A stretch of DNA of 64,000 nucleotides, taken from the NCBI GenBank assembly GCA_963969365.1, contig OZ017746.1:930001-994000 (forward strand), given 5' to 3'. Made by a program: the position numbers and the translations under genes. Every line of letters begins with the position of its first letter. Within the stretch, counting starts at the first letter, position 1. The notes beneath the pieces were generated by a model. It made no database searches. It saw only the letters and a list, made by a program, of their open reading frames with translations, and was not told the origin of the DNA. Positions 2,112 to 64,000 of the stretch are shown here, piece by piece. Source of the DNA: Asterochloris sp. CNOR1. Lineage: Eukaryota; Chlorophyta; Trebouxiophyceae; Trebouxiales; Trebouxiaceae.

Positions 2112-5100
2112 ATGCAAGCAGAGTTGTCAGCTCTCAAGCAGGCAGCCCTTAACATCTTTGATGTGATCACTGCAGACGAGTCCAGCTGTACTGATGCTGT
2201 AACGCTGATATCACCACTGATGCTCTCAGTTCATGCAGGACATGGACAAGAGTGGTTTTGGCAAGCTGAGAAGGGCTGAAGTGGCAGACAACCTGCTGGA
2301 TCTCACGGTGGGGCACAGCTGCCTAATCGACCTTGATGTGAGGCTGGTACCTGCCATGCACAGGGCAGCTGCTGATCTGCAGGACTCAGCGCCGCACACC
2401 CGCGAGCTGATCAAGGGCATGCACCTAGACACAGAGGGTACCATGAGCAGGACACAGTTCGCCAAGCTGTACACGATGTACCACAGGCGAGTGCCTCTCC
2501 TGAGGCTGCGCAGCAGACTGAACAGCTGCCTGCACGATGATCTGCAGGCGTGGTGCTCGCGTGTGGCAGCAGTGTGTCAGCGTGTGCAGCAGCATCATCT
2601 GGCAGCTGGGCCAGGCATGATCTCAGACATGCACCTGTCCTGCACCAGACATACAGCAAGGGCCCAGTTCTAATAAGTGCAGTTCACCTGGACTGTCCAG
2701 CATATGCAGCTCGCAGCCCTGCAGCACATGCAGGACCGCATCCCACAACCTGCTGCATGAGGGTCTGGAACCCTGGCTTCAGAGGCAGGCCAGCACACAG
2801 CAGCAGGGCGCCTCTGCAGAGCACGGCCTTGACATTGAACGGTACAGCCGCATGCTGGGGGTGCCAGCACTGCAGCAGCCCCCATGATGCTTTGCCCAGC
2901 ACCTGTGGCTCTGCAGGGACCTGGCAGGAGAAGGCCCTGGTTCGAAGGGCGCACTGTTGGGCACCATGCGCCAGGCAGCAGCCGCCATAGAGGACAAGGC
3001 GCGGCGGCACCGGCGGCAGCAGTACCTGTGCATCAGGGGCTCCTCTGCGCTCAACTCTCTGTCGCACACAGAGGCCTTCAAGCTCAGCGTGGTCAGGTGG
3101 GCGTGCTGGCTCGTCCGTGGCACACAGACAGGGCATACTTGCCTTCACATCAGAGGCTCTGTTGAGCTCAGCTTGCTGTCCCACACAGAGGCCTTCAAGC
3201 TGAACCTGGTCAGGTGGGCTTACAAGTTGTTGTCAACGCAGGATCAGGGCACTAGTCCAAGATCTGGCCTCAGCTCTTAAGTTGCTGATCAACAACTGAG
3301 GTGTGCCAGCTCAACATTGTCAGGCGGGCCCACAAACAGGCAGGCTGCAGGCTGATGGCATTGCTCAGTGGATGAGCCTGCAGGCTGCATGCCATTGGCA
3401 AGGCCTCGTGTCGCATCCTGCGATGTGTGGCATTTGGCGCCAGCATCCGAGGTCCTGAGCTGCAGCACTCTAGACGCACCGCCTGCCAAAGCTGCCTGCA
3501 CAGCTTTGGCTGCCTGAGCTGCAGCTGCTTGGATGTGGGTGACCCCTTCCAGATGGCTGCAGCGCATCTGTGAGGTGATGCCCAGTTGCACCCGCAGCAG
3601 AGCAGCTTCAGCAGCCCTTTCCATATCAGGTGAACTGGCCAACAAGCCGCAGCAGCATCTGCAGCCCTTAGCGACCTCAGCAGACTTTGCCCCTGGCTGC
3701 AGGGTGAACAGTGCTCGGCGGCTGCGGCGGATCTATGAGGAGATGGATGCCGACCACGATGGGCGCATCAACTCAACAGACCTGAAGACATACCTGGAGG
3801 AAAGCTCGCGCAACCTGGCCAAGATGGCCACAGGCATCTTCAACAGCTACGATCGCGCGGGGAAGGGTTTCATGAGCTTCAGGGTGAGCAGGCGTGCTGG
3901 ACAAGACACTTGGAGTGAGAGCAGGGGCTTCTTGTGGGCAATCGGGACCCTCTGGCGGCATGTCTGTGTGGGGAGGCGAGAGCTTCTCAGGTGACATCTG
4001 GCGGAGCAGGGAGGGGCAGACCTTTGGACGGGGGCAGCTTGGATCTGTTTGTGTGGGAGTGCACTGCTCTGACACTGCTCCGGCCACGGGCACTGTCACC
4101 AGCTAAGGTGTGCAGGCATGTGTGGCAGCTGGGATCCCATAGGAGTGCGGGAACAGGCAGACACTGGGAGTGAGGGCAGAGGTCACCGTCTGGACAGCAT
4201 GCCTGCTCAGGGAGTGGACTGGGTTGACGTGGGTCCCCATGTGAGCCTCGGAGTGAGGTCTGACAGTGCAGGGGAAGCATCGTGGGCGCAAGGGCGCTGA
4301 TCTTGAACTTCCCTGGCCATGGCCACCTTCAACACCACCAGCCACAGGAGGGAATGAGCTTGCCAACAAGTGGCAAGAGTGCACTGGGCATGTGATGCAG
4401 GGGGCTGACCCTCACCTGCCTGGGGTGCTGCAGAGCACAGGCCCACTGCTGCTGCCGGCACAGAGCATGGCAGGGCTGGCTTCTCCAGCTCTGCAGGAGC
4501 AAAGTCTGATGCCGCCCATAGGTGGGCGCAGATGTAATCATGCTGACTGCTGCCGCCACTGCAAGGACTTTCTGAGGATGCTGTACCCCAGCGCTACCCG
4601 CTCTGACGTCACACGCCTGATCAAGATGGCTCAGGACCCCCAGCACCGCGCGCACATAAACTTCTCCATGCAGCGCAAACGCGAGATCGAGGCCATGTTC
4701 CTGTCCATCAACGGCAACGAGAACAACAGTGGGGCCATCAGCGAGGCTGACTTCCTGAGGGGCCTGCAGGCGCTGGGTGAGCCAGGGGTGTGTGCTGGGT
4801 ATGCAGTGCTGGTCTGCGGTAGTGTGAGAAGCAGATTGGTGGAGCGCAGCGCTGGCTCGGGCCCTCAGGGGCATGCAGGCACCGGGTGAGCTGGAGAGGA
4901 TGCTCTGTGGGACTGCAGTGCTGCGTGTGGGCGGTGCTGGTCTGCAGGCCCTGCCAGGCTGGTCCCCCGAGGCATGCAGACGCTGGCTGAGCCGGACCAT
5001 GATGGCGCTGGGTGAGGTTGAGTGTCTCAGCGTCAAGTAGGTGCTGGATTAGGGAACAGCTGCCAGGCGGGAATGTCTGATCAGCAGAAGCCAGGCGCCG

Positions 5101-5637
5101 GGGTGCACGGGATAGGCTGCTGTGCGGGGATGCAGTGGGTGAGCCTGATCTGGTGCTGTCGGGCAAGGCTGCTCCGTGGCAAGGCTGAAGCACAGCAATG
5201 AGGTTGACCCTGATGGCATCATTGTCTTGCACCAGAAGCCAAGGAGGCATCCTTTGAGGCAGCGATATGCGGTGGGCAGGTGCCTGCAGGTGTTGTAGTG
5301 GCACCAGGCCCAGCTTGGTTGCGTTGTGCCCGCCAAGATGCGCTGACACAACGCGGCTGCCTGCAGGGCACAGTGAGGAGGCTGCGCATGACATGTTTGC
5401 TGCTGTGGACACTGACAAATCTGGCACGGCCTCCATGGACGAGTTCCTGCTCTGGTAAGGCCCCTCCGGCGCTTGCTGCCAGCTGTGACCGCAGTCAGAA
5501 TGCTGAGCCACCTTGCATGCCTTGATGCTGGAGAAATTGCCTTCAGGTACGAATCAGAGCTGCAGGTTGCTCAGGGGCATGGCGACATGCTGGGTGCAGT
5601 ATTGGAGTCAGATTCAGATGATGAAGGTCCAGGCTGA
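2112..5637 (+). CDS. EF-hand calcium-binding protein, about 349 aa
   Basis: Predicted Ca2+-binding protein with four credible EF-hands plus one degenerate one. Exons: 2112-2162 (start tentative), 2239-2486, 2917-3096, 3703-3883, 4566-4776, 5367-5454, 5547-5637; total 1050 nt and every junction keeps phase. Loops seen: DMDKSGFGKLRR (degenerate, Arg at position 12), DADHDGRINSTD, DRAGKGFMSFRD (formed across the 3883/4566 junction), NENNSGAISEAD and DTDKSGTASMDE. Between hands 1 and 2 is a basic helical stretch (AIEDKARRHRRQQ). The protein ends in an acidic tail, ESDSDDEGPG. No kinase or membrane domain was found, so it looks like a sensor or adaptor rather than a CDPK. Intron 2 would use a GC donor (AG|GCGAGT). 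The third exon is followed by a tandem copy of its own 3' end (separate entry). The C-terminal four exons are firm; the first is weak (donor GTGATC). Confidence 0.78.
3030..3330 (+). repeat. Tandem copies of an exon 3' end with duplicated splice donors
   Basis: The end of EF-hand exon 3 encodes LSHTEAFKLSVVR and stops at AG|GTGGGC (3096/3097). An in-frame copy 117 bp (39 codons) downstream encodes LSHTEAFKLNLVR and ends at the same AG|GTGGGC (3213/3214). A third, more decayed copy ends near 3323 with AG|GCGGGC. Both first donors give phase 2 and join equally well to the next exon at 3703, so inclusion of the copy would simply add 39 residues. Confidence 0.8.
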
Positions 5638-5816
5638 GCATACAAGAAGCACATATGACACAGATCGAGTGCAGCATTGCTTCAGGTGCAGACCGCAGCT
5701 TCATTCCTTCAAGTCAAGATGGCATGATGTCACAGATGTGAAGTGAGGGAAGATCAGCGGGTTACAAAGCACGTGGCTGCAGACGGTGAGGGCAGCTGTC
5801 ACGGCCAGCCAGGGCA

Positions 5817-15045: not shown

Positions 15046-15111
15046 TGGCCAGCTGCAGCCAGTGAGCTGCTTGTGTCGGCAGTTGAGTTACACTGAACGG
15101 TGCCATCCTTC

Positions 15112-15117
15112 AATAAA
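15112..15117 (+). terminator. Candidate polyadenylation signal AATAAA for RIBA
   Basis: AATAAA lies 67 bp after the RIBA stop codon, in the 248-bp gap to the tail-to-tail MSH2 gene. Green algae often use TGTAA instead, so this is only a candidate. Confidence 0.3.
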
Positions 15118-18200: not shown

Positions 18201-21200
18201 ATTGAGGTGGCGGTGGGCTCCCTGATGAGAGCCCCAGGGGCTGGACCCTGCTCACGCAAAGAAAGCAAGGCATCGCCTGATGCGCTCCCTGATGAGGGCA
18301 CCAGCATCATTTCCGTGATGCCTCAAGACTTGCCACCAAAGGTCCCAAATGAGGGCAGGACAGGATGCTTTCAACATCTCATTTGAGCTTGGCTGAGCAT
18401 GTTGAGATCTGTCTTGGTCTCAGGCGTGCAAGGACAGAGAAGTGGAATGTGTGCACCCCACCTGCTCCACCAGCTGCTTCTGCATGTCGTCATATTGCCC
18501 TGCCAGGCCCTGCAGGCGCTCAGCTGCCTCCTTCAGGCCCCGGTTCGTGAACTTGGTCCCATCCTTGCGCGTCTCCAGCGTCTGGTATTTGGCCTGCAGC
18601 TTCTTGCGTACCTGTAGGAAAGGGAGCATTGTGAGCAATACAGAAATTGGCCAGGGTGCCTCTGCTCACGGCACCTATCAAGCAGCCAGGGGCTGCACAC
18701 ATTATCACGACTTGCACATCTGCAAGAGTGGAAGCTCTATGAGCTGTAGACCTGCGTATGTGAGGAATGGCCCAGGTGCCACCTGTGCTTATGGCACAAG
18801 CCGCTGCAGCCAGAGGCACCTGGCAACCGGCCTCAAGCTGCTTGCGCACCTGCAGGAAGGGGGCAGCACTGTGAGCTGGAGGCCTTCTACCCACGAGGTC
18901 TGGCCAAGGTGCCTGTGCTCATGACTTTTTGGAGATGTCAGTGTCTGGTACTGGCCCTGCAGTTTCCTCTGCAACTGCACCCGGAATCCAGGGGCCAGCA
19001 GCTCAGAATGTGCTGTGCAGCAAGAGGTTGGCTGCAGAGGCCTGAAGTGCTGTGCAAGGGGCAGCTGGATCCCTGCCAACCAGGGGTGCAGCTCATGTCA
19101 ACATGGCTTTCGAAGCTGCATGCTGCACCACACGCAGTAGGCCTGCCCTGCGCCATGGCAGAGAAAAAGAAACCCGCCTTGTGCAGGACGGCACACGCCG
19201 TGGAGCCTTCATCGAGCCTGCAGCTCCCGCCTGCCCAGCAAAGCTGAGTAGGCTGCATCCTCCTTCAGTGAAAGGTTAGCTGGGGCCTCACAAAGAGGGC
19301 TGGGTTCCCAAACTGACCTGCTTCTCCTCTTTCTGTGTGATGCGCAGGCAGCGCGTGCGGCTGTTGTTGAGTCGGTGCCACTCCAGCTTGATCGTCTTGT
19401 TCATGATCAGGCCCAGGTCAGCTGCAGCAGCATGGGCAGTTCAGGGCCCATACCCAAATACAGAGAGTGCAAACTGCTGGAGGAGCATGGCTGTCTGGAC
19501 ATGAGCAGCAAACAGAAGTACTGCATCGCAAATTCACAGCCCGTAGGCATGCCCAGACATCTGGGCATTGGTGTGCCGAGCAGCACAGGTGGGCTGAACA
19601 GCGCAACGCTCTACAGGAGCCGGCTTGGCAGGAGCCTGGCTTGGCTGGCAGGCATGTTTCGTGGAATCAGCATGGCCTTGCGGGCTCGAGCAACAGGCAT
19701 GAGCTATGCAGCAGCCTTACATGCTGCCTGGGAAGCCAGCTGCTCAATCTGCTGCTCCACCCCAGTCTTCTCCTGGCGGACTTCCTGCACCAGGCAGGAG
19801 CACAAGGCTTCACAAGGCAGGCAGCAAGGGCGTGCCCCTCTGATTGAGAAGAGGGATGCACGCTGCCTGCCTGATGTGCAACAATACCAACAATAGCCAT
19901 GAAGGCATGGGGCACCTTGAAGGCACAGCGTCACTCAGCTGATGGATGCAGGCGGCCCAAATGGGCAAAGGCTTCAATCTGAGCCGGCTGTGGCAGGATG
20001 CGCAGCTGCCAGGGCAGGGCCTTGCCTGCAGGCCGGCATCGTAGGTGCTGCAGATGAGGTACTCGTCTGGGATCTTGTCCAGATCCACGGCCGCCTCCAG
20101 CAGCTCCTCAAACTTGGTCAGGTGCTCCGCATCATGGTATTCGCTCAGCGCTGCTGCAAATCTGCAAGGATCGTGTCTTTCAGCTGCACGACAGGCCTTC
20201 CTTGGCGGTCTCTCTCTTGTGCACATTGCCACTGCTTTGAGTGCGCAGGACAGCATTGCTGCCTGCCAGGAGGACAGCCCAGGTGCCCCAAGCTTTGCCT
20301 GGTAGGGATGCAAGAAGCGACAAGGACATGGCCGCCAGCTTTCTGGCAGATTGTGGGTGCCCCGCTGCAGCAGCCGCGCGCCCACGACTCTGCTGGTGGC
20401 ACTCTGTCACCTGCTGCGTAATAGCTCTGCGTGAGGCCCCTCGTGCGCCTGCAGCACGTCGACAATGGCTGGCAGCTTGCTGCTGGCGCGGTACAGCTGG
20501 CACAGATCCGCCAGCGAGCACCGCCGCCGCTCCAGCTTCCGGGTCAGGCGCTCCACGTCTGGCATGCCTGCAGCAAGGTAGCAGCAGCATGTCGGTGCTC
20601 TGCAACAATTGGCACCGTCCCTGCAGCAGGCGGCAGCTTGTGGCTGAGGGCCGCCACCTTCAGCATGTCTGCAGCACAGAAGCAGCATGTTAGTCCTGCG
20701 CAGCATGCTGCAGGGGTTTCTGTGCCTGCAGGACTCCGCGTGCGGCACACCTGCAGCATGACGGCCAATGTGTCAAGCATACAGCTGCCCTTGGCAGACT
20801 GTGTTGGGCAGGCCCAGAGCGGTGTAGCAGCATGCTGGTTGTGCACAGCAGGCTGCAGGCATACAACTGCTTGAGGCGCTGACGTATGCCTGCAGCAACT
20901 TGGTGGCAGACTGGTGCTGCGCTGAAGCAGGCTGCAGCCATGACACTCTGCAGCACAAGATGAGCCTTCTGCTGCACCATGGCTGGTCAATACATACTGA
21001 GAGGGCAGTGCTTTGTCATTCAACTGGGTATGGCAGGAAACTGCTGTGGCCAGAACAGGCTCTGCAGCATCATTGCCTGCAGGCTGAGGGGTCTCACCTC
21101 GCATGTGCTGGTCCCTGAGGCGCTCCCGCAAGTCAGGATCAGTGGCAAACGCGTCCACAATGTTGTGGCGTGTAGTGATCTCCTCCAGATTCGTCAAGGG

Positions 21201-24200
21201 CTGCTTCAACCAAACCTGAAGGTGCAGGAGCTGTGCTCAGAGCCCAGGGTGGGCACCCAAATCAGAGACTAATGTATGGCAGCAGATTGCATGGTGATTG
21301 TGCTGCAACAAAGGCATCAGCATACAGCAGGGCGGCCCAATTCCTCACAGGCAGCTCACTTTGCAACGGGAGTATGGCTGCAGCACACACCGAGCATGCA
21401 GCATGCCCGCCAAAGCAGGTTGGGTGTGATTTGACCTGCAGGGCGCTCGTGGGCAGCGCTGGTTGTGCTACATGCAAGCTGGCAGTAAAGGTGCCCTTGG
21501 CTAGAGAGTCGCAAGCTGCCTGCAGCAGGATATCCAAGGATGCCAACTAGGCCACCTCAACAGTACAACCTCAACAGTACAACGTACCCACCTTGCGCTG
21601 AAATCTGAGACGCAGCCAGATCTTGCAAGGCCCTTGCCTGGACAGGCCGAATGCCCCCATGATAAGGCAGCCTGTTGGTCCCACCTTGAGCAGCCACGCC
21701 CTCAGTCTGTGATGAACTGGAAGATGTCGCCTTCAGCAGCTAAGATGTCCAGTTGCCAAGCAATTCAGGGTGCTCAGGACCCTGCAGGTCCCACCTTGAG
21801 GAGGCGCTTGCCCATGGTCGTCCGCGCCCGGTTCATCAGCCCATACAGGCTGAAGCTGTCGTTGGCATCAAGCTTGGTCTTCATGACATTGAGCGCCCTC
21901 TGGGCAGCTGCGTCCAGCCGCATGTAGCGCCCCATGTCGTACAGCGACAGTGCAAATTTCCCATGGTTGTCTGCGTCTGCCAGGACCTCTGAAAATGCCA
22001 GCACAGCTGCAGCACAGGCAAAATAGAAGATACGACCCAGCAGTGAGGTGCACCTGCAGATGCGAGCACATACTGCAGAGCCAATCGAGATGTGGACCTA
22101 TCAGCAGGTTCGGTAGCCGCTTGGGAAAGCAGCTTCCAGCTGGTAAGAACATAAAAGCTTGCGGCCTGAGCGCAAAGCGAGGCTGAATGCAAGCAGGGCG
22201 GCATGCCCTGGCGCCAATGTTAAAAAGGAGGGAGGCCAGGTGCAAGGGAGCGCGTGCAGGACAGCGCAGCACTGCGCATTGGCTGTGGCCAGGACCCTTC
22301 ACAAACAGGCCGATGATGGGATGCATGTGAGCAGTGTCACCTGCCAGTGCCTGCTTGGCCACCTCGCGTTCTAGCACCTCACGATGCTGCTCGACGCTGC
22401 CGCCCTTGAGCAGGCGGGCCAGGTCCTGCAGACAGGCAATTCTAGGCTGACCGGGATGCGTGCCACAGGAGCAAAGCAGCAGAGCCAGCGAGCTCCAAGC
22501 AGCACGCGCTGAACCGCAGCTGGCTGGCGCCCAGGCAGCATGCACTGCTTTACACGGTGGGGCAGCCAAGGCTGCTCACAACACCATCTAGCATGTCTGT
22601 CCTGATATCTGTCTTGATTTTCCTGTGGACGCTAAGCCACTCCCTGACCTGCCGCGGCGCATCAGAGCAGGTGTGGCAGAGTTCTGAATGCCAAGCCTTT
22701 GCGCCACAGCATGCAGCTCATGACTCACAGAACCACGCAAGTGCGCAGCATTTCTGCCCATGGGCATGCCTGTGCAGGACAAAGCGGGGCAAGCTGACAG
22801 CATGGTGAGATGCCTATCTGTAGGGCTATCCCATCTGACAACCTTGCGGCAGTCTGAGGCATGCATGCCTGTGCATGGCAGTCTGGCCAAGCTGACAGCA
22901 TACTGCTGGCCCACCTGCTCCACATTCTTGTCTGAGAAGGTGGCCTTGGGCCGCTCTGAGGCCAGCGCGCCACACCGGCTCATCACGTCCCGCAAGCGCG
23001 CAGCATCTGTGCCACCTGTGGCTGTGTCCTTCTCCTGCAGCACGCTTCAGAGCTCAGAAGTGCATTCAAAACTTGCCTGCCGGGGGGCACAAGGGACAGT
23101 GGAAGATCTGCTCAGCAGCTTGCCCACTGAGCAGGGATGTCGGGACTGGCAGGGCATGAGGTGTGCACCAAGGAAGCCTTCACAGGCTGCACTACAATCC
23201 AGGGCGCTGAGGCCTGCCATGTTACAGTGCACAGCAGCTTCATGACTCTGCCCACCTCAACCAGCATGAAGCCTTTAGTAGCCCAGCTGCATCACCACAG
23301 AGACCCTAAGCGGGCAAACCCATATGCGAGTGGAGACCGTCCTATGCCCGGACCAGGACCTACTCCCCTGTGCAGGTGCAGCAACCAGCCCCTGAGGAGC
23401 CACCAGACTTCACCTTAACCAGCACGCACTCCATGGCCCTCTGTGCAGGCATGCCACCCAACAGGTCAAGCCATCCTTGATCAGCATGCTGTCCTCACGC
23501 ACCTGTACAGGCTCTTTACACCACTCCCAAATAAGTCACACCTGCCACGTTGCACTCCTTGGCACACAGATGCTTGGCACCACAGGAAGTCCTTACTAGG
23601 CCCGTCAGCAGGAACACCACATGTCTGCCTTGACCACTAAAAACCCCCCAGTGACACCTCGGCGTGCACTCAGGGCCCACTGCAGGTACGCTTTCTCAGC
23701 TGAACAGGCAGATGCCCACCTTGACCAGCACGCACTCCTTGGCCCCCAGCTGCACCACGACCGCCTCAAGGTTGCAGAAGTGCTCATCATCGGTGATCTC
23801 GCACATGCCCAGCTTACGCGAGGCGGCGTCACAGTACGCAATGCCTACTGTCCTGTGGCCCTCATGGGACGCAAGCATGACAGCCATCACCACAGGGACG
23901 TCCTGCATCTCTGTGTTACGGAAAAGCTCGTCATCGAAGCCACTCAGCTTGCCAGGGCTGGCCGTCCTGCAGGGCGAAGCAGCAATCTAGGCATCTGCGG
24001 CTGGAGGCAGCTGCAGCTGAGACAGTGCAGCACCTGGAGTGCATTGGATGCAGCGCTACCCTGCAGACGCAGGAGCGGGAAGGTCTCCGTTAGTTTGGCA
24101 CAGACATGGGAGAAATGGGAATGCATATGGAGCCGGCAGGATTGCAGGGGACAGAGCAGCACAGTGTGAAGAGAACATGAGGTGCGTCCTGGACACCATG

Positions 24201-27272: not shown

Positions 27273-29275
27273 TCATCGCAAGCTGTGCCATTTCACATGC
27301 CTTTCGCGATGCAAGGCTGCTTCAACACCATGCAGCACATGATCAACCACAATGTCTGCTGGGTCTCTGGGGTCATTGGTGTCTCCAGAGAACACACCTG
27401 TCCTGACCAGAATGGAAGTCCAGGGCGCCCCTGCAAATAGCCAGCTCAATGTATTGCAGCACAACAGGTGCAGGCGTCAATCATGCGCAGCTATGCTGGG
27501 AGTGTGGTGTAGCAGTCACCTGCATTGCGGGCTCCCCTCACGTCTGCAGCAGGGTTGTCCCCAAAAGCATAGATGTTGCAGAAAGGCAGGGGCTGACCAG
27601 GCTGGTCTTCGGCCTGAGGCAGGCCGAGGAGCTGCGCCTGCTGCAGCAGAAGCTTTTCAAGCAAGCGGTACTGGGGAGGGTGGGGTTTGCCAAAAAATAC
27701 ATGAGAGGGGATGTCCTGCCCAGTCACCTGCAGACACAAGGGGATCTAGTCAGCGATGCCAGCTATTTTGCCAGAAGGCTGGCGTTGCGTGCTGCAGGAG
27801 CCTTCCCAGTGCACAGGGTGGGCCCATGCTGTGTGCAGAACGCACACGCCTAAGCAGCTGCAGGCCAGCTTGAACGAGAGCAACGCACTGCGTTCTGCAC
27901 TGCCATCAGTGCTGCGGCAAAGGCGCCCTGCCCCAATCTAGGGGCGGAGAACTCGTTGCTGAAGACCACATCAGGATTGCTGAAAAACAGCTGCACTCCA
28001 GGGGCATCTGGGGGAGCCTGCAAGCGGCCAGGGACCCCACCTGCGGCAGGCATGCAGTCTTGGTGCATGTTGCACAGGAGGTGGGGTACACAGGTCAAGG
28101 CAGCGCCAACAACACATACACGGGGGATTCCCTACCTGAAGTGAGCACATCTGTCAGCAGCTGCAGATCTCTGTACCAGTCTGCTGGGTCGGTGAACAGT
28201 AGGCAGGCCTGGAACGGATCCTGCTCAGAGCCCCAGGCAGAGGGAGGCGCCTGACTCTGCTGCTGCTCCGGGCTGAGTTGCTCTGGCAAGAACAGGTCAG
28301 CAGTATGATATGATGAAGCCTGCTCCAACAGCAAAAAGAGCAGCAGGACAAGCCGGAACCTTTGAATGGCAGCGCGTGTGGGTGCCGGGCTTCAAGCTGA
28401 GCTGTGGTGACAGCCTTCCTGAAGCCATAGGCCTCTGCCACCTCAGGGGTCCTGCCCCTGCCACTGATAACGACAGGACTGTCGCCAAACTGCTTGGCCA
28501 GCTCACGGAAAGGGGTATGGGAAAGAACCACCTGCAGCATGAAGCTTGCAGGTCGAGCGCGCTGCTCTTTGGCAGGATGATGGCGCGAAACAGAAGCAGG
28601 GCTGGCACTTGCATGCCAGGATTGCCATGCGCAAAGAGCAGCAGGGCTGGCACGTAAGCAGATGCATGGCCAGCTCTGCACCACATATCACCCGGGCTGG
28701 CATGCACGCAGATGCCTGGACAGCTTTGCACCAGACAACAGCAGGACAGACAGGGAGGGCACAGCTTCGCACACCGAGCTGCAGTCTTGCCTGGTCCTCG
28801 CCCACGGACACATCCAGCCAGCTGGACAGCTGCTCTGCCTTCTGGGCTTCTGTGACGCCGCCCCCATTGGTCAGGAAACACACAGGGTACTTTGGCTCCG
28901 CACCTGCAGTCAGGGGTGCTTGCTGCCTTGCTCTCGGCATGGGCGCTATGCTGTCAGCACATCGAGGTGTTTACCACTTGATCTGTAGAGCATTGCCAGA
29001 GCCTTTCTGGCTTCTGGCAGCACATCCCCACCACGGATCAGGACACCATCAATGTCAAAGCAGAAAGCCGGGGGTTTGCCTTCTGACGTCACTGTGCTCA
29101 GACTGCGCAGCAGGCCGCAGTGCAATATTGCTGCTGTGGCATCTGTTGGAGTCAGGCATGACTGAGCAGCGTGCGCTGACAGGAGCTGGGAGGCCTACAC
29201 AAGATTAGCTTTGAGGGCATGCGTGTTTGCTGGAGCTATAATCAGAATCATTCGCAGCTTCACCTTGCGGAACAT
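27273..29275 (-). CDS. HAD-superfamily hydrolase, HDHD5/CECR5 type, 393 aa
   Basis: Predicted mitochondrial haloacid-dehalogenase-like phosphatase. Exons 29275-29264, 29194-28975, 28903-28791, 28531-28360, 28282-28136, 28040-27889, 27727-27520, 27430-27273; 1182 nt, phases consistent. The N-terminus MFRKASQLLSAHAAQSCL is Arg/Ala/Ser-rich and suits a mitochondrial presequence. HAD motifs in order: motif I FCFDIDGVLIRGGDVLPEA (nucleophile Asp and second Asp present), motif II CFLTNGGGVTEAQKAEQL, motif III Lys in HVFFGKPHPPQY, motif IV YAFGDNPAADVRGARNAG. Family-specific blocks VVLSHTPFRELA, LFFSNPDVVFSNEF and RLGQGAF also match CECR5. The intron after 28791 has a GC donor (CAG|GCAAGA), and a tandem repeat lies inside it. 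The first coding exon is only 12 nt and therefore tentative. It is divergent from the transporter gene. Confidence 0.92.
28597..28740. repeat. 51-bp tandem repeat in a HAD-gene intron
   Basis: Units 28643-28690 and 28694-28740 share gggctggca-(c/t)g..gcagatgc-(a/c)tgg-(c/a)-cagct-(c/t)-tgcacca with a handful of differences; a partial third copy of the gggctggcac start lies at 28599. All are inside the GC-AG intron 28790-28532. Confidence 0.7.
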
Positions 29276-29456
29276 GGCTTGCATCACACCCTGTCTGACA
29301 TATACTGTTCATCTGGTGCTGGTGGCGGCGGCCACCGCCAAGAAAGGGAGGGTCCACCGCCAAGAAAGGGAGGGTCCACCTAAGTCACCAAAGCTTACCT
29401 CCTGCAGCGCAGCTCATGCCAACTCACCAGGAGGGGGGCACAAGGCACAGTTCAGC
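29276..29456. promoter_or_regulatory. Compact bidirectional upstream region with a 22-bp direct repeat
   Basis: Only 181 bp separate the HAD start codon (29275, minus) from the transporter start (29457, plus). Two perfect head-to-tail 22-bp copies lie at 29332-29353 and 29354-29375, containing the core ccgccaagaaagggaggg. A promoter or binding-site role is inferred from position only. Confidence 0.5.
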
Positions 29457-44033: not shown

Positions 44034-44326
44034 AACTGGTCTGAAGTACCTTGCCTACATTGCTACTGGTCAACTCCAGGTGACAAGGTCTTTTGACCTA
44101 ACATATTATACAGCAGGGGCAGAATGTTTTCACACATGTGTTGCTGGGGCAAGGCAGAACTGGAATAGTGAGATGGGTTATAGCCCTAGACGGCATATGG
44201 GGTTCTTCTTGATGAGCTGAAGGCTAACCTGCAGCGGCAGGGCCAGCTGACACAATCTGCCCCCTGACACAATCTGGGTTTCTCGAATTAGTGGCCAGTC
44301 CACTGCTACTGTGTCAATCAACCATT

Positions 44327-47300
44327 TCAGGAGCTCACCTTGTGACCAAACAGGTCTCTAATGTTGTCAATGCCATACAGAATCATGGTGGGCCTACAGA
44401 CAAACAGGGTTGCAACCTCTGCTTTTGGGAAACAAGGGTAGGACAGACTTGATCTCTGGAAGCATGGCGTTGGCTGGCCACCTGCTGGAGCTGAGCAGAC
44501 AGGTCACTGACTGCCCTCACCTTTCTAGGCTCAAGCCCCAGGCGATGACATTGACATCCTCAGGGAGGCCCATAGGCTGCAGCATCTCTGGGCGAAACAT
44601 GCCGCTGTTGCCCACCTCAATCCACTTGCCCAGCTCTTCAGAATAGCTGCAGGCAACAGAAGGGATTTCAGAGCCCTGATATGTGCATGACAATTGACAG
44701 CAGGACCTTGCATGCAAAGCCCGACTGCTGAGGAAGCATGCGGCTGCGTGTCAAGAAGCCCACCTAGCCTCAAGGGCCGCAAAGGTGATAAGCCACAAGG
44801 CACATGCTGACCAGAAGCTCTTTGTGCTGGGGTTGTGTAGGGGTCAGGAGTAGGGGTGTCAAGAAGCACGGAGACTGTCTTCCTGCCCAGACAGCAGCAG
44901 AACCAACATGTTGCCCTGGGTGGACCATTGTCATCTCAACATGAGGTGTCTTGGGAAGCTGCTGACCTGAAGATCTCCATGCTGGGCTCTGTATAGGGAT
45001 TGTACGCTGGTTTGAAGCGCAGCTTTTTGAGCCCTAGGCGCTGGAAGAACTGGTGCAAGGTACCAATCAGGTTGGCGAGCGTCAACCCCTTGTCACAGAC
45101 CAGACCTGGAGCACGGCAGACCCTGACAGGGCCATTGCAGCACATCCTGCTTGACAAGTGTGGTGATCAGCATGCAGGCCACATTGTTTGCAAGGGGCCA
45201 CCTTGTACCCACAGCGCTGCTGCAGGGCATGAAAATCCAGTGCGCTCCTTTGTCAACAACCCCACAGCAGGACACACTGACATTCACTCTGAAGCTCAGC
45301 CAGGTGAGCCGTGCTTGCAGCCTCACCACCAAATGGTCGAGGCTTTTCCAGCAAGGAAACATGAATTCCGCGAAGAGTGCCCCCTTGGACCCAGACCCTC
45401 AGCCGTATACAGCACCCAGGTTGCTGCAATGCATGCAGGCCCCTGCAAGCATCGTGCTGACACCCTGTGGCTGGGCACCCCACTCACCTTCTATCTGGTG
45501 AAACTCAGCCAGGTGGGTCCTGTCCACGGCCTCATTCCTGAAGACGCGGTCAATGGAGAAATACTTGGCTGGCCTGAAGCCCTCCTGCGCCAGCTTGTAC
45601 AGCATGCGGCTGGACACTGCTGTGGTGTGCGTGCGCAGGACGTTCTTCTCTGCCTCGGCGACCTTCCAGCTGTAGCGGTATCTGGGCAGCCCAGAAGGGA
45701 GGCTTGTCAGCACACAGCCACCTCACTTTGCCAGCCTGCCCCTGGTGTGGCCGGCACATCAGCAGCCCAAAGTGTCTGTCAGCAGGCAGGTGCCCAAAGG
45801 TGGCCTGCCGATGCTTACTGGCTGGGCAGCTAGCTCACTGGCAGCTGGCAGGCGCCAGGAGGTGGTGTGGCAGCGCACAACAAGGCGTAAACATGGGCAC
45901 CCAACAGGCTGCTGCAGCTGGCGGTAGGAGGCAGGGGGGGGCATCCCCAAATGGCCAGGATGGCATGCCGCCTGGTTGTGCAAGGCGCAAGTACAGGCAA
46001 CACCGAGCACTGGGAGGCAAGCAATGAATCTGCCGAGGCCCAGGAGGGCTAAACATCCTGTGCTATTGCAGGTAGGCGTGACGTGCTGTGAGGCTACAAA
46101 CTGCAGAGGCACCCTGAAGGTGCCCATCAGCTGGTTATGTCTTGCTGCCTCACCCTGTGGACCCATAGCCTCCCTGCTCATGCACTGCCCTCACTCGCTG
46201 CAGGTAGTCCTGAGGGAAGCGCTCAGCTGGCGTCCTTGCAGGGTCTGCAGGGTCAGCAGACATGAGAGGTTCATGTACTTGCTCATTCAGGGATCCGCAA
46301 AACAGAGGTGCAGCTCAAATGCCCATGCTACAGCACGCACGTTGCCCATGCCGTCTTGGCTGCAAAGCGTCATCGCAGCACCGGTGAGTGTTTATACAGC
46401 CTGCTCTGCCCTTACTTGTCAAGAAGAAGGTGTCGTGAGCATCCCTGGCTGGGTGCTGCTGGGGCTGGAACAGTGCATCAAAGTTCCAGAAGCTGCACAA
46501 GAAAGAAGGAATCGAAATGAAGCTGCAAAGTCCGGACCAGCCAGATGCATTACAACAAAATGGCTTGCAGCATGGCGCTGCAGCTGGCCGCAGCGTAGGA
46601 TCAAGGCAGCACCAGTGCTTGGAGAGTTCTTACCAGCTCTCCACATAGTTGTTGGTAGGCATTTCCTCAAAGCCCATGGCAACAAAAATCTTGCGGAACT
46701 GTGTGCGCACCTGCAGGGCAGGATGCACAGGCAGGATGTACAGAAAGCAGCCTGCTGCTTGACCCTCACAGGCTTGACAGAAAGCAAGAGATAGAGCCTA
46801 GGTGCAGGTGCATGCAAGCATGCACAGTGAGCATGCCTGCGCCCTGTCTGAGAGGCACATACAGCTCCTCGGTCCAATAGTCACGGTAGGCACCAGCAGA
46901 ACTGACCTTCATCAAAGGATGGAGGTGGCCCCCTTGTAGGTTGAGTCCCAAAGCCTGGAAGTTGTAAGGCTTGAAGTCTGCATCCTGCCAGCTCCCACTA
47001 CAGGCAGCCAGCCAGCCGGGGCAGTGTCAGGCAGAGAATGATACCACAGCAAGATAGACAGGAGGGTCCTGTTATTGTCAGCAGCTCAGACAAGGCTGAA
47101 GTGTATCATCAATGTGCGTGTGCACGTCAGAATTTGATGGTACTGAGTGGTCATCACAGCAGCTTGCAGACACCAGCAGCCCTCTTTTGCAGGGGCCAAA
47201 AACACTTGTCAAACCATTGCAGGCTACCAAACTGACTGCAATGCTGACCAGGCAGTTCTTCCGGCAGGACCAACACCCGTGACTCCCAGCATCTGTCAGT

Positions 47301-48984
47301 ACAGCAGGCTTATAGACAGGCTTCCCTGCATGCCACGGCCTACCTGAACTCTTAAGCAGCTCAGACAAGGCTAGAGTGCCTCATCCATTTGCATTTGCTT
47401 CAGGATTTGATGGTGCTCAGTGGTCATCACTGCCGCTTGCAGACAACAGCACAGTCCACCAGCAAGCCACAGCTTGCTCAAGCAGCTTGCTGTCAATGTT
47501 GCCCCAGCATCAGAGAAGATGTGAGCCTTGTGTGAGTTATCAGCCCTGAGAAGGGTAGGGGTCCATGTATTCCAGATAGGGCTGTGCTGCGTGTATCAGC
47601 CTACCTGGCTTTTTTGAACGGCTCCGACAAGGCTGAAGTGTATCACTGAGGTGCAACTGCAATATAGCATTTGATTGTGCTTGATGGCCAGAGCAGCACA
47701 GCAGGATTGCATGCTTCAGTGATGTCTAGGCATCAATCCTGCAGGCAGCCTTAAGCCTCCGAACAAACTCTAACTGATGTGCTGTCCCTGAGCCCCAGGT
47801 AGGACTTGATGCAGGGCACTGCCTACCTCTGAAGCATCTCAAAGGTGAGGTCAGTGTGCTGCTTGCGCCGCTGCAGCGCAAACTTGGGCCCCTTGGCGAG
47901 GCTGTAGGATGTCCACGTGCTCACAGCCACCAGCTTGCGCTTCCTGAGGTCATCAGCAGTGGCCTTAGGGACCTCCTGTGAGCAGCAGCCAGGGGTTCAC
48001 CATCATATCACAGGCTCGAGACGTTTCTGTCCTGCAATGGCGGCACACACGTGTTAACCCTGTGAGCAGCAGGCATGCATCGGTGAGCCAAGCTCTATTG
48101 CTGCAAGTCTTGGTTGGCAAGCAACGCCTACACTATAACAATGGCTTGGGATGTGGTTATACTCATGGAGCTCTACTTCTTGAGGAAGCATGAAGCACAG
48201 ACCCATGCAAATCAAGGCTCAGCAACTCCTCACCTGGCCTTGCTGAATATGAAGCAGGGCGGCCTTGCCCTCATCCTGAAAAGCAGATCCGGCAGCCTGC
48301 AGCATGCAGAGATTTGGGCTCACGAAAGGTGCAGGGTCACCCAGTCTGTTGTGAGATATGCGATAAGCAGAGCAGAGGCAGTGGTGCATCATGGAATCAC
48401 CGAGCAGATTGCAGACTTACCTGCATCTTCAGGACAGGCTTGCCTGAGCCCTTGTCCAGGGACAACAGCTTCCGCTTTAGAGCCTGGCCAAGTCCAATCT
48501 TAGCTATTGGCCCTAGGCTTTGCTGCATGCCAAATGAGGAATCTGGACAGCTGGCCACCAGCCTGGGGCGGCAGCATGCAAAGAGATGGCAGCCAAGTCA
48601 ATTCATGTGCGGATCACCTGAAGCTCATCCTGCGGGATGCCTGCTGCGCCTGCCTGAGCTACCCTGTGCAGGATCTGGGCCTCAGGCATGCCATTTTCTG
48701 CATATTGAGCGCCCTCCTCAGTCAGGGAAAGCTTGCTGCACTTGTGTTCCTGCATGAAATGATGATTTGTCCAGCATTGAGTGCAGAAATGTTGAGCACA
48801 GCTAGGGCCGGGCATGGGGGACTCTTCCCACCTGTGCCTCCACCATGTCGGCTGCCAGCAGACTTTTGATCTGCCCAACCACTGCATCGTGGTTCAGCTG
48901 GTGCTTGATGGCAAATTCAGCTGAGTCTGCTACTCTGCCTGCACTGTTCACCTCCTGCAGCAGGAGTCTCTCCAGCTCTGCCAT
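44327..48984 (-). CDS. FARSA: Phenylalanyl-tRNA synthetase alpha subunit, cytosolic, 465 aa
   Basis: Catalytic alpha chain of the (alpha-beta)2 class II synthetase that charges cytosolic tRNA-Phe. Twelve exons: 48984-48832, 48749-48618, 48522-48421, 47975-47827, 46997-46907, 46710-46634, 46492-46416, 46244-46154, 45681-45488, 45105-44967, 44646-44521, 44393-44327; 1398 nt, all in phase. Winged-helix N-terminal domains ([12 protein letters not shown]..., [14 protein letters not shown]) precede the catalytic core: [58 protein letters not shown] (motif 1/2 region), [75 protein letters not shown] and [20 protein letters not shown] (motif 3). The tail after GHKVSS is shorter than in animals. It is head to head with the DedA gene. 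One 829-bp intron contains a tandem repeat. Confidence 0.97.
47060..47700 (-). repeat. Tandem ~220-270-bp repeat in a PheRS intron, carrying copies of an exon end and its donor
   Basis: Intron 47826-46998 holds three related blocks anchored by gctcagacaaggctgaagtg-type sequence near 47090, 47363 and 47628, with downstream shared blocks such as gatggt(a/g)ct(g/c)agtggtcatca at 47137 and 47407. Two of the blocks carry a donor-like GTAGGC on the gene strand (at 47343 and 47604), as does the real exon end (47826). The first copy reads [12 protein letters not shown] before its GTAGGC where the true exon reads TDLTFEMLQ. Confidence 0.75.
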
Positions 48985-57200: not shown

Positions 57201-60200
57201 AGGCAAGCAGGGCTGCCCTGCCTGCCCCTGCAAGTGCTGCCGCTGGGCAGGCGCCAACCAGGCAGGCTGGGGCTGGCGCCACCAAGACAGCTCAGGACCG
57301 AGCTGGGATCCTAGCGGTGTTCCAGAGCTTGGGGAGCGAGAGTCAGGGGAATGCTGAGGAGCCCTCCAAGGCGGCCACAGGTGAGGGCTGCCACCTCAGA
57401 TACTTTGTCTAGGTCCCTTGACCATGTGGGAGCATGAATGTACATGGACGGCTGGGAGCTGCCTCCTGGGGTGTGCACACACCCAAACCCAATGGTGCGC
57501 AGAGGGGCAGCTGCAGGGTTGCCTGTCTTTGTGAAGCAGGTGACTGAGGCAGAGCCTCTGGTTGTGGTCGTGCAGGGATGGCTCTGCCTGTGTCTGGGGC
57601 TTGCTTGACTGGGACCATGGCTGTGGGAGCTGCTGCCATGGCTGACAGCCAGCACAACCCCTGCTGAGTGTCATGAGGCGCCTGCCGTTGGTACAGATGA
57701 GAGGGAGGAGTCAGAGGAGAGCGGTGATGGGGGTGCTGACAAGGGCAGTGGTGATGAGGCAAGGGCACAGGACGACGGGAATGACCTTTATGCCTCAGAG
57801 CTGTCGGACTCAGAGTCGGTTGAGGGCCAGGGCCCCAGTCCCGCCCGTACGCCTGCTGGGGGCATCAGGTGAGCAAAGGAGGCTGTCAGCCCCGCCTGGG
57901 CAGTGTGCTGCTGCCCAGTGTAGCTGCATGCTTTTCAGATGGAGTCTGGGAGAGGCTGGCAATCACGCACTGAGATTCCCAGCTCTGCGATGCTATGCTG
58001 GCAACATGCTGCACAGCTCAGCACCCCATGCATTGCAGCGTTGCCTTGCTCACGCTGCAGCTTTGCGTGCCAGTAGGGCTGACCTCTCTCAGCCCCAGTC
58101 AGCTGGGGCAATCACGTCCTCTTTGCTGACCCCTGTCATTGCCCTTCTGCCCAAGCAGGCGCTCCAATCGCAGCCGCCACCAGCCTAGCTGGACGCAGCT
58201 CAACGAGTCTGGGACAGACCCCTCCTCAAGTGGGCCCCCTGCCCGTGTGGCCGTGCTGCGCAGCCGCCGCCGCCCCCAAGCACTGGAGGACCAGGCCACT
58301 GACAGTCAGGTGGGGGCGCTGATAGTTGTTGCTAGTGTGTGGGGCATGAGTTGGTCAGTGGCTGGCTAGGAGACATGGAGACATGCTCAGGGACCCCCCA
58401 AGATGCTGCCACTGGTGATGCAGGTCCAGGGTGCGCATGGCTCCACGGCCCACTTCTGCACGTACCTGCTGTGTGGGCTCCTTCAGGGTCCGGTGCCATC
58501 CAGGTCAGGGTGCAGCTCCCGTTGCCATGCACGTGATCAGTGCTGTGTGGTATGCAGGTGGAGGCAGCTGGGGCCGGCACTCCATCGCGCCTGCGCACCA
58601 CATCTGCTCGTGATGAGGACTCTGCAGCTGGGACCAATGAGGAGGGGCCCTCAGGGCAGTCAGAGGCAGATGGAGAGCAGTCACTCTCCCTGGAGGGTGA
58701 CGAGGCAGACGGCGATGAGGCTGAGCAGGTAGTTGAGCTGTTTCGCACACCGGTCTCACGCCTAAAGCTTGAGGCCATGGCCTGCCATTCTGCCCGTTCA
58801 ACAGGTGGCTGCCCCGGAGAAGTGCAGCCCACATGGATGGCTGTCACAGGGACCCGGGCCTGCTTTTGAACCCTGCCACACAACCACCCCTGGTACATGC
58901 AAGCCCATGTGGGTGACCAAGCAGAGGCACAGGTCACGCTGAGTGCCCCTCACCTGACTGCCCATGGTGCATGAGTCTTTGAGGGTGACCTTGCAGGGTG
59001 GATCAGAGCTGCGGCGGGGGACCAGAGCACGGCGCAAGACAGCTGCAGTCCTGGAGGCAGAGGCTGCCCAGCGCAAGACGATGCAGACACGGCGGCGGCG
59101 CCCACCACGGCCCCAAGCCACGCCGCGTGCCAGAGGGCACACAGGCTCTGGACAAGGTGTGCAGACATTGTGCCCTTGCTTGACACTGCAGCTTGGGCCA
59201 CGCCGTGTGCGAGGAGGCGCACCTGCTGCAGGCTGTGTGCAGATGTTGTGCTCTTGCTCGACACTGCAGCTTGAGCCATGCTGTGTGTCAGGCGCAGAAG
59301 GTACACACAACTTCCCTCACTGGACAACGTAACACAGGCCACGCAGTGTGTCAGGGGCCTGCCAGCCCTGAAGGCAGTGTGCAGGCGCAGGCTGCGCGCC
59401 CTCCAGCTCGCTGTGCTTCTGTTGGCTGCCAATTATCAGTCAGCCCACACCCACCTAGCAGCTGAGACGGCTTGAATGGGCAGGCTGTGTTCGGCAAGTC
59501 CTGCTGTTCTGACTCCACAGGAGGCTGTAGTGCTGGCCAGCTGTCAGCTTAAAGTCAGAATGTCACCTGCCAGTGCCTGACAGGTGCCAGCACGAATCCC
59601 ACTCCCCAACTACACCATCGATGATGCAGAGCTGTGGATGCTGCTGCAGAGTCTGAGGGCGAGCAGCAGACGAGGGAGTCTGACGCGCAGTCGCAGTCTA
59701 CTGATGCCTCACAGGCTGAGGATGGGCCAAGGAGCGTCGTGGCCACCCTGGCTCTGATGCTGGCAGCCCGACAGGGCCCTCAGAGGCTGAGGAAGATGCA
59801 GGCAGTGATGGGGACTCCGAGGTGCGCCTCCCGCTCTTCTTGTGTGGGCTGCTGTCAGCATGTGCCTGCTGCAACAGCTAGGCGCAGTCAATGGTCGGCA
59901 GGCAGGCTATGGAGATTTGCCGTGAGCTGTGGAGGGAAGCGTCAGGCAATCTGCGTGTGGCGGCTCAGAGAGCTGGGCTGGTGGCACGGCAGACTCAACC
60001 AAGACACCTTGCAGCACTGAAGTTTGACACACCCATCAAGCCATGCGCGGGACAACCCAATTCTGAAGTCCTGGTGCAGGCTGAGGGTGCCACCTCAGGT
60101 GAAGATGCAGCCCAAGAATCTGCCAAGGATACAGCAGCAGCGGTGCCAGCTGAGGCCGCCAAGCTCCGCCAGCCTGTGGCTGTACCGCGTGGGGGTGCAG

Positions 60201-62067
60201 CAGCGCAGCGGCCGGTCAAGTCAGCAGCCGGCCAAAAGCGCCAGCGCGGTCGGACAACGGCAGGCCAGGGTGCACAAAAAGCTGCTAAGCAGCAGCGCGG
60301 GCCTGCAGCGGCCGCGACTGCTGCAGCGGCGGCCGCTGCAGCAGCTGCAGCGGGTGGTGGTGGGGACACTGACTCGGCATCAGTTCTCAAGGTGTGCAGC
60401 CTGGTTGTGATACAGCTGCCAGGCCTTCACAAGGAGCAAGTACCAGCTGCTTGGCTTTAAGCCTGTTGGGAATGACTGTGTATTCTCGCAGCTCACTATC
60501 TTCGGTGTTTTCCAGCACTTTTTCGCTCTTTTTGTCCTTTTGCCATGTCTGAGAGATCGCTGCAGGTGCATCGGCGACCGCGCACTGGTGGACGCAAGCG
60601 CAAGTCGATGGATGCAGCAGCACGCTTGAGCATGCCCCCGGCCGAGCCGGCAGCTGCAGCAGAGCCCCCGCAAAAGCGGAAACGCAAGTCTGCCCCTGCC
60701 GCCAAGGCTGCTGCTGCTGGCAAAGGTGCACAGCAAACTTTGTTGAGGGGTACCACGGGTGATTGTCAGCTGCAAGCAGAGCTTTGTGACCTGGGGGATC
60801 TTTGTTGCAGCCTTTACTGCCTGTACCTCGGACCTTGTAGAGCTTACTGACTTGCCACGAGCAGGCTTGTCATACAACACATGCACAACATATGAAACCC
60901 TGACAGGCTGGTTGGTATCATTGAGTGCCAGCCACCAACTTGAGCCGGCTTGGCCTTGAGCTGGTGCGGATGTGCTGAATGGCTGGCACGCTGACTTGCT
61001 GTGGTCTCTGTAGATGAGGACCCTCAGCCGTCAAGCCGCAAGGCCGCCAGCAAGCGGGCTGGAGCAGCTGTGGTGACCAGTGCGACAAAGAAGGGCAAGG
61101 ATGCACAGCCCCGGTCAGCCACCCCAGCAGGCTCAGAGGCAGAGGCAGCCATTCCAGGTGGGCTGCATGTCAGTGTTCTGCAGACCTTTGCCCAGTGCGC
61201 AGCTTTTTCAGGTACGGCAGCCTGTGCTGGCTCAAAGTTGGTGCAATCCCTGAACCCAGCTAGAGCTCAGCCGCCACTGCATGTCCTGCAGACGAGGAGA
61301 GCTGGGACAAGGCTCTGCTGCGCAAGCTGCAGACTGCCCCTCCGGGGGCTGATGCTCCTGACATGGCACCCGCGGGTGAGCTACCATGGCAATTGCACAT
61401 GGTTGCAGTCTTCAGGGGCCCTCTGTGTTGCTGCACATGCCTGGCTTGGCACAGCTGCTTTTTGCAGAGAATTGTCCGCTGCGCCGGAGCGCTGCTGTTA
61501 TGTTTGCTGGGCAGCATCCTGGCACACATCCCCGCTGCATTGTCGATGCAATCCACCAGAGACAGCTACATGCTTGTCCTGCAGCCCAAGCTCTATGCTA
61601 CCTGGAGTGGTTTGGCAAGCCCCTCAAGAGCAGCCGCTTCATCCAAATTGGCCCTCTCGTCACCTCAGCCAACAAGGGCGTCTTTCTGCGGCTGCGCCGG
61701 GATCCTGACTGGCGGGACAACTCACGTGGCGCCAAGTGAGTCCTTCAGGACACCACTGCCGGGAAGGCGGCACACTGAGCCAGGGACTCATCAGTCACGC
61801 CTGCATTTGTTGCGCCCCAACACCACAGGTCACCTGATTCATACTCGGTGAGAACTGTTGAAGCATATAAGTCACCTGCGCAAGCTTGACGTGCTGTCTC
61901 TGCTTTGCTGCAGGAAGGTTGCCACTGCCAGCAAACACGTGCAGGATGCAGCTGCCAAAATAAGGCAGGGTCGCCCCTTTCATGCCAACAACAAGTCTAA
62001 GCAAGCCCTCCTGAATGCATTTGACAGACTCATTGCCATGGTGGCTGAGCTGGTCTCCAATGAATGA
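51216..62067 (+). CDS. Large low-complexity nuclear protein with a TFIIS N-terminal-like domain
   Basis: Phase-consistent exons: 51216-51511, 51943-52202, 52422-52627, 52858-53061, 53332-54243, 54684-54855, 55156-55386, 55593-56041, 56158-56366, 56569-56658, then (less certain) about 56880-57380, 57697-57868, 58159-58309, 58558-58728, 58997-59156, about 59630-59820, about 59900-60391, 60566-60725, 61014-61157, 61292-61375, 61585-61735, 61914-62067. Ordered parts: REEVLRSDGRQEVRWFLSDP domain (unrecognised); a helical ELEYVEIQLQNIKGLLAEYE segment; a TFIIS-N/LEDGF-type helical bundle (LSDLLDALRELASTHMSLRI, VQPLRDHEDWAIRTMARNCT, QWRRSM) made across the 54243/54684 junction; and a C-terminal YLEWFGKPLKSSRFIQIGPL and KKVATASKHVQDAAAKIRQG domain. 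The rest is Ala/Pro/Gln-rich, acidic (EESEESGDGGADKGSGDE) or basic (KRRAKPRPRTK, KRKRK), typical of chromatin or transcription-elongation factors. Two frame-switch points (about 57000 and 59740) are unresolved. Two adjacent genes instead of one cannot be excluded. Confidence 0.6.
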
Positions 62068-63120: not shown

Positions 63121-64000
63121 CTTGGCCCGCTTGTCCTTCATCTGAACCACAGTGGGGAAGCGCTCCGCGATGGGAGGCCGTGTCGAGAGTCCGACTGCCG
63201 CAGAGTCCTCCCCTTCGTTGAAGGGGTCCCCCTCCTCCATGTGCACGTCCACCTGGAACTCGTTGGGGCGCTCGCGGGCCAGGTAGTGCTCCCGGACACA
63301 CTCGTCCAGTATGACTGCAGGGCGACACCAAATCTGGGGCTGGAGTTTCAGTGAAGCGTCTGTCTCGATACAGAGCACTGTGCTGGAGTGAACTGTCCAC
63401 CATACTTACACGAGGCGCGCCGCAGCCGCTGTTCCAGCACACACTAGTCCAGGACGACTGCAGGGGTGGCACAGGGACTGGGATTGCAGGCGGTGTATGA
63501 AGCACTGCTCAGGGAATTTTTGGCAGATACTGGTCCAGGACAACTGCAAGCACACAACACTTTGCAGAGTGAACGCAACACTGTGCAATGTGGGTGGCTG
63601 CCCCTGCACAACCTCGTCCAGGACAAGTGTGGGCAGCACCGTCCAGAGTCTGGAACGAGAAGCTTTGTGCAGGAGCGTGCTGGCTGCAGCATACACACTC
63701 AAAGCAGAAGTTGCACGCAGCTGGAAATGTTTTGCCCACAGCTTGTCCATGGCTGCCAAAACGGTGCCCACCTGCAATCTACATCTGCCCTCGACTGCAC
63801 CAGCAACACGTCTGCCCCAGTGACACCAGATGCAACTGGTGCCTGCTGCCTGCATGCCAGGTACAGGCCTGGCCTGCAGCCCCGAGCTCACCAATGGTGG
63901 AGAGGCCCAGCTTGTGGCCCTGGCCCAGCCTGGAGACCCAGCCTCAACAGTGTGCTGGCGGCACCCCCAGCCTCACCAATGTACAGGCCCAGCGCGAAGT
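63121..64000 (-). CDS. Part of an unrecognised gene entering from the right edge
   Basis: One firm exon, 63314-63121 (tgcag acceptor, AAG|GTGAGG donor, 64 codons plus 2 nt). It encodes ILDECVREHYLARERPNEFQ, VDVHMEEGDPFNEGEDSAAV and PPIAERFPTVVQMKDKRAK. The mix of charged helix, acidic loop and a Pro-Ile-Ala-Glu-Arg block looks like an ordered, conserved protein, but I do not recognise the family. Upstream (63840-64000), two similar exon ends precede GTGAGC and GTGAGG (HKLGLSTI and ALGLYI before Gly-GT), so at least one more exon lies there. Confidence 0.55.
63296..63640 (-). repeat. Four copies of an exon start and acceptor
   Basis: The real exon start (tgcag|TCATACTGGACGAG on the minus strand, 63315) recurs as tgcag TCGTCCTGGACTAG near 63458, tgcag TTGTCCTGGACCAG near 63545 and a copy without the tgcag, TTGTCCTGGACGAG, near 63622. 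Spacing is about 143, 87 and 80 bp. The copies would encode VVLD-type starts, but the first copy is closed by TAG. Confidence 0.75.

Follow-up and report, generated by a model that had tools for sequence, protein, structure and literature searches.

Decayed tandem copies of exon edges in introns of the lichen alga Asterochloris sp. CNOR1, probable remains of past short duplications

Introduction

Duplications inside genes have reportedly been linked to new introns, going by the title of a study by Gao and Lynch. Here we describe duplications inside genes of the lichen alga Asterochloris sp. CNOR1, in particular within a stretch of 64,000 nucleotides (contig OZ017746.1, positions 930,001 to 994,000 of the forward strand; this whole stretch is called the window below), where introns of several genes contain short, decayed copies of the edges of neighbouring exons together with their splice sites. 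Set against the title of Gao and Lynch, the introns here seem to lengthen rather than arise, and they bear no in-register signature of birth. We consider the copies to be, more likely than not, the remains of a past episode of short tandem (segmental) duplication, in which the outer splice sites were kept in use and exon edges became trapped in introns.

Short tandem duplication and intron gain by tandem duplication are both already known. The passages on duplication in PMC5730883 and PMC8355091 describe short tandem duplications that arise through the repair of staggered breaks in mouse cells, and they cite rice, Arabidopsis and human as further cases. Those duplications are local and direct, as here, but they belong to a class of <100 bp, whereas offsets here are about 50-300 bp, nearly all copies are old and their junctions are too decayed for microhomology or adjacency to be recognised. 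Intron gain by tandem duplication of AGGT segments, as presented in the relevant parts of PMC3443670 and PMC4974935, likewise creates extra splice-like sites; there, however, the duplicate is the intron itself, which is not the case here. The introner elements of Micromonas and the introner-like elements of fungi, introduced in PMC3443670, resemble our copies in being recurrent repeats in the introns of many genes, but the two units that we searched for are private to their loci.

A parallel in intron length is Chlamydomonas, whose compact green-algal genome has long introns for a reason left open in PMC8226300; the median intron is near or above 200 bp, similar to that found here, and the passages of that paper on long introns do not discuss tandem duplication. 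For Asterochloris, the genome summary in PMC6652019 gives 56 Mb, 9 introns per gene and a GC content of 56-62% over 98% of the genome. Among the papers listed in full-text literature searches, which leave most subscription journals out, neither the titles nor the opening lines of the abstracts speak of introns growing longer through trapped copies of exon edges.

Materials and methods

All rates are based on 314 kb sampled from a genome of 56.4 Mb in 21 contigs: the window (C1:930001-994000), C2:1,000,001-1,200,000 and C5:1,000,001-1,050,000. The GC content of the window is 55-63% per 4 kb, and its genes are intron-rich. Exon edges are predictions of a small gene finder, self-trained on the sampled sequence, which yielded 78 genes and 617 introns with a median length of 209 bp. 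For the window it gave 21 models. Ten of these were submitted to Pfam and seven matched (MSH2, the two halves of PheRS, TrpRS, a HAD hydrolase, the EF-hand gene and a decarboxylase fragment); the other three, including the gene at the right edge, had no match in that search, and the gene model at 59 kb was outside the submitted set. The spliced MSH2 model matches Msh2 of the PDB (2o8b and others) with an E value of 1.2e-162 in phmmer.

Duplicates were sought by self-alignment at offsets of 25-624 with a strict scoring (match 1, mismatch -1.3, gap 4+1) and a score threshold of at least 17. The strict scoring was chosen because a lenient one let some alignments extend for hundreds to thousands of bases. 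For the category counts, pairs with an offset below 40 were dropped (which reduced 131 pairs to 120 at scores of at least 17) and exons of less than 30 bp did not contribute edges; the first category count, made on 264 kb with the first gene models, used neither filter. Intron tests were run on 411 or 265 modelled introns, selected by length and by the size of the flanking exons, and introns for the swap control were matched in length. In the placement test 92 clusters of pairs were shifted at random, and one cluster may count in several classes.

Results and discussion

The sampled sequence contains 131 pairs at scores of at least 17 (21 in the window, 86 in C2 and 24 in C5), that is about 4 per 10 kb. 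The recurrence across unrelated genes noted in the preliminary description of the window thus extends to both other sampled regions. One might suspect that such pairs are chance similarity caused by biased composition, since the commonest hexamer is CTGCAG, CpG stands at 0.38-0.39 of its expectation and inverted local matches are slightly above the far controls. The controls leave this explanation next to no probability. Four far-offset controls gave 0-2 pairs per region, and in the window 0 at each of them as against 21 local pairs. Twelve dinucleotide shuffles of the whole 314 kb in blocks of 60 or 120 bp gave 0-4 pairs, so that the similarity noted earlier is not a product of composition, and 14 prokaryote PheRS loci (90 kb) taken as a negative control contained 1 pair at an offset of at least 40, compared with 120 in our sample. 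Swapping introns also removes the signal, as detailed below. Chance is therefore refuted for high scores, while some of the pairs at scores 13-15 are due to it.

The copies are also local and direct. Between adjacent blocks of 600 bp in the window and C2, direct matches outnumber inverted ones 13 to 1 at scores of at least 20. Two units searched for in the whole 56.4 Mb matched only themselves, in a search that skips very common words, so for the two units tested the copies are private to their locus. A dispersed, introner-like element was rejected on the grounds of these two private units and the near-empty far offsets.

Exon edges are represented among the copies far more often than expected. 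When the donor region (20 exon and 30 intron bases) is aligned with its own intron, 18 of 411 introns reach a score of at least 13 against an expectation of 0.6 from swapped introns; for the acceptor region the corresponding numbers are 19 of 411 and 1.6. The similarity of introns to exon edges reported from the window is hence enriched over controls. In the placement test, clusters joining an exon edge with an intron number 37, compared with 15.1 +/- 3.4 expected (2.4-fold), whereas intron-intron clusters are close to expectation (23 versus 19.9) and edge-exon clusters are fewer (4 versus 9.1). Three other settings of the gene finder gave 31-37 edge-plus-intron clusters versus 12.8-15.1, and the first gene models a weaker excess of 21 pairs versus 14.7. 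Of the 37 edge-plus-intron pairs, 23 have alignments that cross the junction with 12 or more bases on either side, and therefore genomic DNA, not mRNA, was copied.

Does this excess mean that exon-intron junctions are preferred targets of duplication? The preliminary description had proposed a process acting at exon-intron borders, and a junction-directed mechanism, be it breaks linked to splicing or R-loops or slippage at the junction, could be imagined. Such a mechanism would account for the edge clusters, since in each of the four settings none of 600 permutations was as high as the observed number. It would also fit the eight junction-crossing probes, for which copies turn up in 13-17 of the 265 introns compared with 6-14 for intronic probes, and the depletion of intergenic clusters (7 versus 19.7 expected). 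Moreover, every bin above score 15 shows a 1.9- to 2.9-fold excess, with no steady rise. However, if junctions were the target, intron sequence beside them should share in the excess, and among the 265 introns it does not: intronic probes at +10 and +20 on the donor side find copies in 7 and 6 introns, those at +45 and +60 in 9 and 14, and on the acceptor side adjacent probes give 7 and 6 versus 11 and 9 for deeper ones. A single deep intronic probe, with 14, does as well as those crossing the junction. In addition, exon edges show no excess at scores 13-15 (11 versus 10.4), where many pairs are due to chance, and conservation is higher on the exon side. Taken together, the probes and the low scores do not bear out a process at the borders, and we regard junction targeting as unlikely.

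The edge excess fits what is expected from random duplication within genes combined with a longer recognisability of pairs in which one copy is constrained. Within 45-base windows anchored at the junction, the fraction of positions kept is 0.68 for exon and 0.55 for intron sequence; exon exceeds intron in 26 of the 37 pairs and falls below it in 8. In the alignments as found the two are about equal (0.774 for exon and 0.769 for intron parts), and because of this the argument from constraint rests on the anchored windows only.

The identity of the copies carries information about their age. Seventy-nine pairs align over 40 bases or more at an offset of at least 40; among them, identities of 65-70% are found in 6, 70-75% in 20, 75-80% in 31, 80-85% in 19, 85-90% in 2 and 90-95% in 1, with nothing above. 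Thus, 1 of 79 pairs is at least 90% identical and 3 of 79 are at least 85% identical. Neutral duplication simulated at a constant rate and passed through the same pipeline gives 28% of pairs at or above 90% (about 22 of 79 expected) and 44% at or above 85%; with a wider age range these values are 26% and 42%. Older copies outnumber younger ones, a pattern that no loss process yields at a constant birth rate, so births must once have been more frequent, unless young copies diverge abnormally fast. Some small duplications still arise, as illustrated by a perfect 22 bp unit at 29332-29380 of the window and by a 49 bp unit at 90% identity that a tandem-repeat program reported in C5. In our sample hardly any duplication of more than 40 bp is young, which contradicts the idea of an ongoing process.

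Abnormally fast divergence could result from hypermutation of young copies, similar to RIP, acting on duplications that arise at a constant rate and thereby hiding them. This would account for why copies drop off sharply above 85% identity, and the depletion of CpG is in keeping with it. On the other hand, the differences between copies comprise 733 transitions and 862 transversions and are not restricted to transitions; for 200 of the transitions, a CpG in one of the copies is involved. On this substitution spectrum RIP-like mutation of duplicates was rejected as a candidate, and we consider it very improbable that hypermutation hides a constant rate.

Based on these observations, we suggest the following course of events for the past episode of duplication. 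Ordinary short tandem duplications, mostly with offsets of 50-300 bp, would have accumulated in gene bodies. Where a unit spanned the border between an exon and an intron, splicing would have continued at the outermost donor or acceptor, leaving the additional copy, exon edge and splice site included, inside the intron. The protein would thereby stay unchanged, the intron would become longer and the copy would be free to drift. Presumably the outer splice sites were kept in use and the episode has ended since. By analogy with the systems introduced above, the duplications may have originated from the fill-in of staggered breaks rather than from slippage. The numbers of edge-intron and edge-exon clusters, 37 and 4, fit a trapping of copies in introns. 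Growth of introns, as suggested earlier for the window, is plausible: detected duplicates reach into 72 of 507 introns, whose median length is 388 bp, compared with 221 bp for introns without one, with the reservation that longer introns also offer more room.

It is tempting to go further and to speculate that this was a gene-body-biased burst of duplications of about 50-300 bp, now ended, during which splicing served as a one-way ratchet that kept junction-spanning duplications only in introns, so that introns grew and exons did not. We put this stronger version forward tentatively and would sooner doubt it than rely on it.

Tandem duplication might instead have given birth to the introns themselves, out of exonic AGGT segments, by the intron-gain route demonstrated in the part of PMC3443670 that deals with it. 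In that case donor and acceptor regions of an intron should resemble each other in register, but their mean similarity is 12.25 of 40 within introns and 12.41 between swapped introns. Birth of this kind was accordingly rejected for the bulk of introns, with room left for single or very old cases, and as an explanation of the copies described here it is extremely improbable.

Several observations weigh against the proposed past episode of duplication with trapping of exon edges, and should be kept in mind. The exon edges were taken from a self-made gene finder, which is a caveat for everything that depends on their predicted positions. The depletion of intergenic clusters is unlike a wholly generic process, unless intergenic copies turn over faster or missed genes were counted as intergenic. 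The absence of a steady rise in the edge excess above score 15 counts against recognisability as its explanation. As to the lack of young copies, 8 of all 120 pairs are at least 90% identical, 7 of them being alignments of 17-29 bases, and the tandem-repeat program found in C5 a further unit, of 38 bp, at 94%. Finally, the ratio of aligned length to offset has a median of 0.57 in 70 real pairs and of 0.96 in 775 simulated pairs of like identity. Either the units have eroded further than expected from the neutral model, or at no time were they adjacent over their full length.

Having acquired exon edges and splice sites, intron copies could in principle have become functional, as alternative exons or splice sites under selection. 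The preliminary description had considered decoy splice sites and alternative exons as outcomes, and part of this holds, as a canonical site and a similar peptide persist in many of the copies. Exon parts with at least 18 aligned bases are open and in frame in 24 of 46 cases (the other 22 have a frameshift, a stop or both), and the splice dinucleotide is retained in 28 of 38 copies. Retention is nevertheless scarcely above the control and does not clearly exceed neutral decay, with 13 of 19 for GT (control 46%, Fisher p 0.047), 13 of 17 for AG (66%, p 0.26) and 2 of 2 for GC (71%, p 0.50). A laxer count had given 31 of 36 sites kept versus 22.7 expected, an effect that faded with cleaner gene models. 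The mismatch fractions between intron copies and exons at codon positions 1, 2 and 3 are 0.21, 0.20 and 0.27, so the strong third-position bias to be expected between two coding copies is missing and, by this measure, we find no coding constraint on both copies of the kind that duplicated alternative exons would have. Furthermore, duplicates with no exon edge at all show much the same level of identity, medians being 0.76 for intron-only (n=14), 0.76 for edge-intron (n=28) and 0.74 for intergenic pairs (n=8). The intron copies thus look neutral, with one copy constrained and the other free. Alternative exons are not supported, and a function for the copies appears improbable.

Even the modest reading alone, in which old duplicates lie in introns, carries a warning for annotation, because intron copies mimic exons and one of them, in MSH2, was miscalled by the gene finder. 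If the burst and the ratchet were true, trapped exon edges would be datable markers of intron growth, and burst and ratchet together could help explain the long introns of compact green-algal genomes, a question that would become testable against sister species. If the burst is real, the scarcity of young copies would further show that a single lineage can undergo abrupt shifts in how often short tandem duplications occur.

Duplicates in individual genes

Alignment recovered duplicates in all five genes of the window that had been named at the outset, and likewise in a sixth at 59 kb. In the EF-hand gene (forward strand) the end of exon 2917-3096 with its donor, at 3031..3102 according to the gene model and the alignment, has an intron copy at 3148..3219 that is 83% identical and keeps GT. 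The donor at 3097 falls outside the domain matched by Pfam.

For MSH2, on the reverse strand, short duplications had been noted in four introns; duplicates are present in all four, but at the threshold used they include an exon edge in only two. The acceptor and start of exon 18462-18611 (18591..18660; gene model, phmmer and alignment) recur within the intron at 18829..18900 with AG kept, and a second, more decayed copy of the acceptor region lies at 18699..18800. The gene finder called 18820-18849, part of the first of these copies, an exon, and in that stretch Msh2 of the PDB has a gap of 12 residues. The acceptor and start of exon 20411-20567 (20533..20607; gene model and alignment) are copied at 20634..20705. 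The two intron-only cases are a 24-bp pair at 18214-18237 and 18281-18304 (18214..18304) and a 40-bp pair at 22764-22803 and 22863-22901 (22764..22901). An MSH2-like sequence occurs also at 1915-2235 of an IMG/VR contig of 57.8 kb (L034), where it is 60% identical to the window MSH2 over about 105 residues; the locus there is apparently intronless, and the contig may come from a giant virus or a eukaryote.

The HAD-hydrolase gene (reverse strand) has a tandem repeat of offset ~44-45 at 28588..28752, which is entirely intronic, in agreement with the earlier remark that it lacks a clear exon edge. In PheRS alpha, on the same strand, an exon end with its donor at 44967 (44960..44998; gene model, Pfam and alignment) is copied in the intron at 44805..44842. 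This part of the earlier claim on PheRS alpha stands, whereas the large three-copy repeat of the gene (47080-47178, 47355-47451 and 47621-47698, together 47080..47698) shows no visible exon edge. Left unassigned by the gene model, it probably sits in a long intron (~800 bp) between the exons of the DNA-binding domain and the catalytic exons. At this intron our gene finder broke PheRS alpha (44178-48984) in two, and other finders may do likewise.

In the gene at 59 kb (forward strand, 59117..59292) an exon end with its donor, 59117-59214, aligns with an intron copy, 59197-59292, at an offset of 80. A model at 51216-62067 encodes a low-complexity protein of ~1770 residues rich in Ala, Glu and Lys, and it may fuse more than one gene. 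The right-edge gene (reverse strand) has an acceptor and exon start at 63287..63322, based on the alignment and on a gene model lacking Pfam support, with an intron copy at 63430..63465 that is 83% identical and keeps AG.

Splice sites and base composition have features of their own. Across all three sampled regions the 3' splice site is an almost invariant TGCAG: 93-94% of the modelled introns carry T at -5 and G at -4, a proportion that self-training may inflate; it is followed by G in 69% of modelled introns, and in the MSH2 model TGCAG is the acceptor of 18 of 20 introns. GC donors make up ~10% of modelled introns in the window, C2 and C5. The strong CpG depletion, in the window and C2, is accompanied by an increase of TpG and CpA up to ~1.7 of expectation, which suggests CpG methylation.

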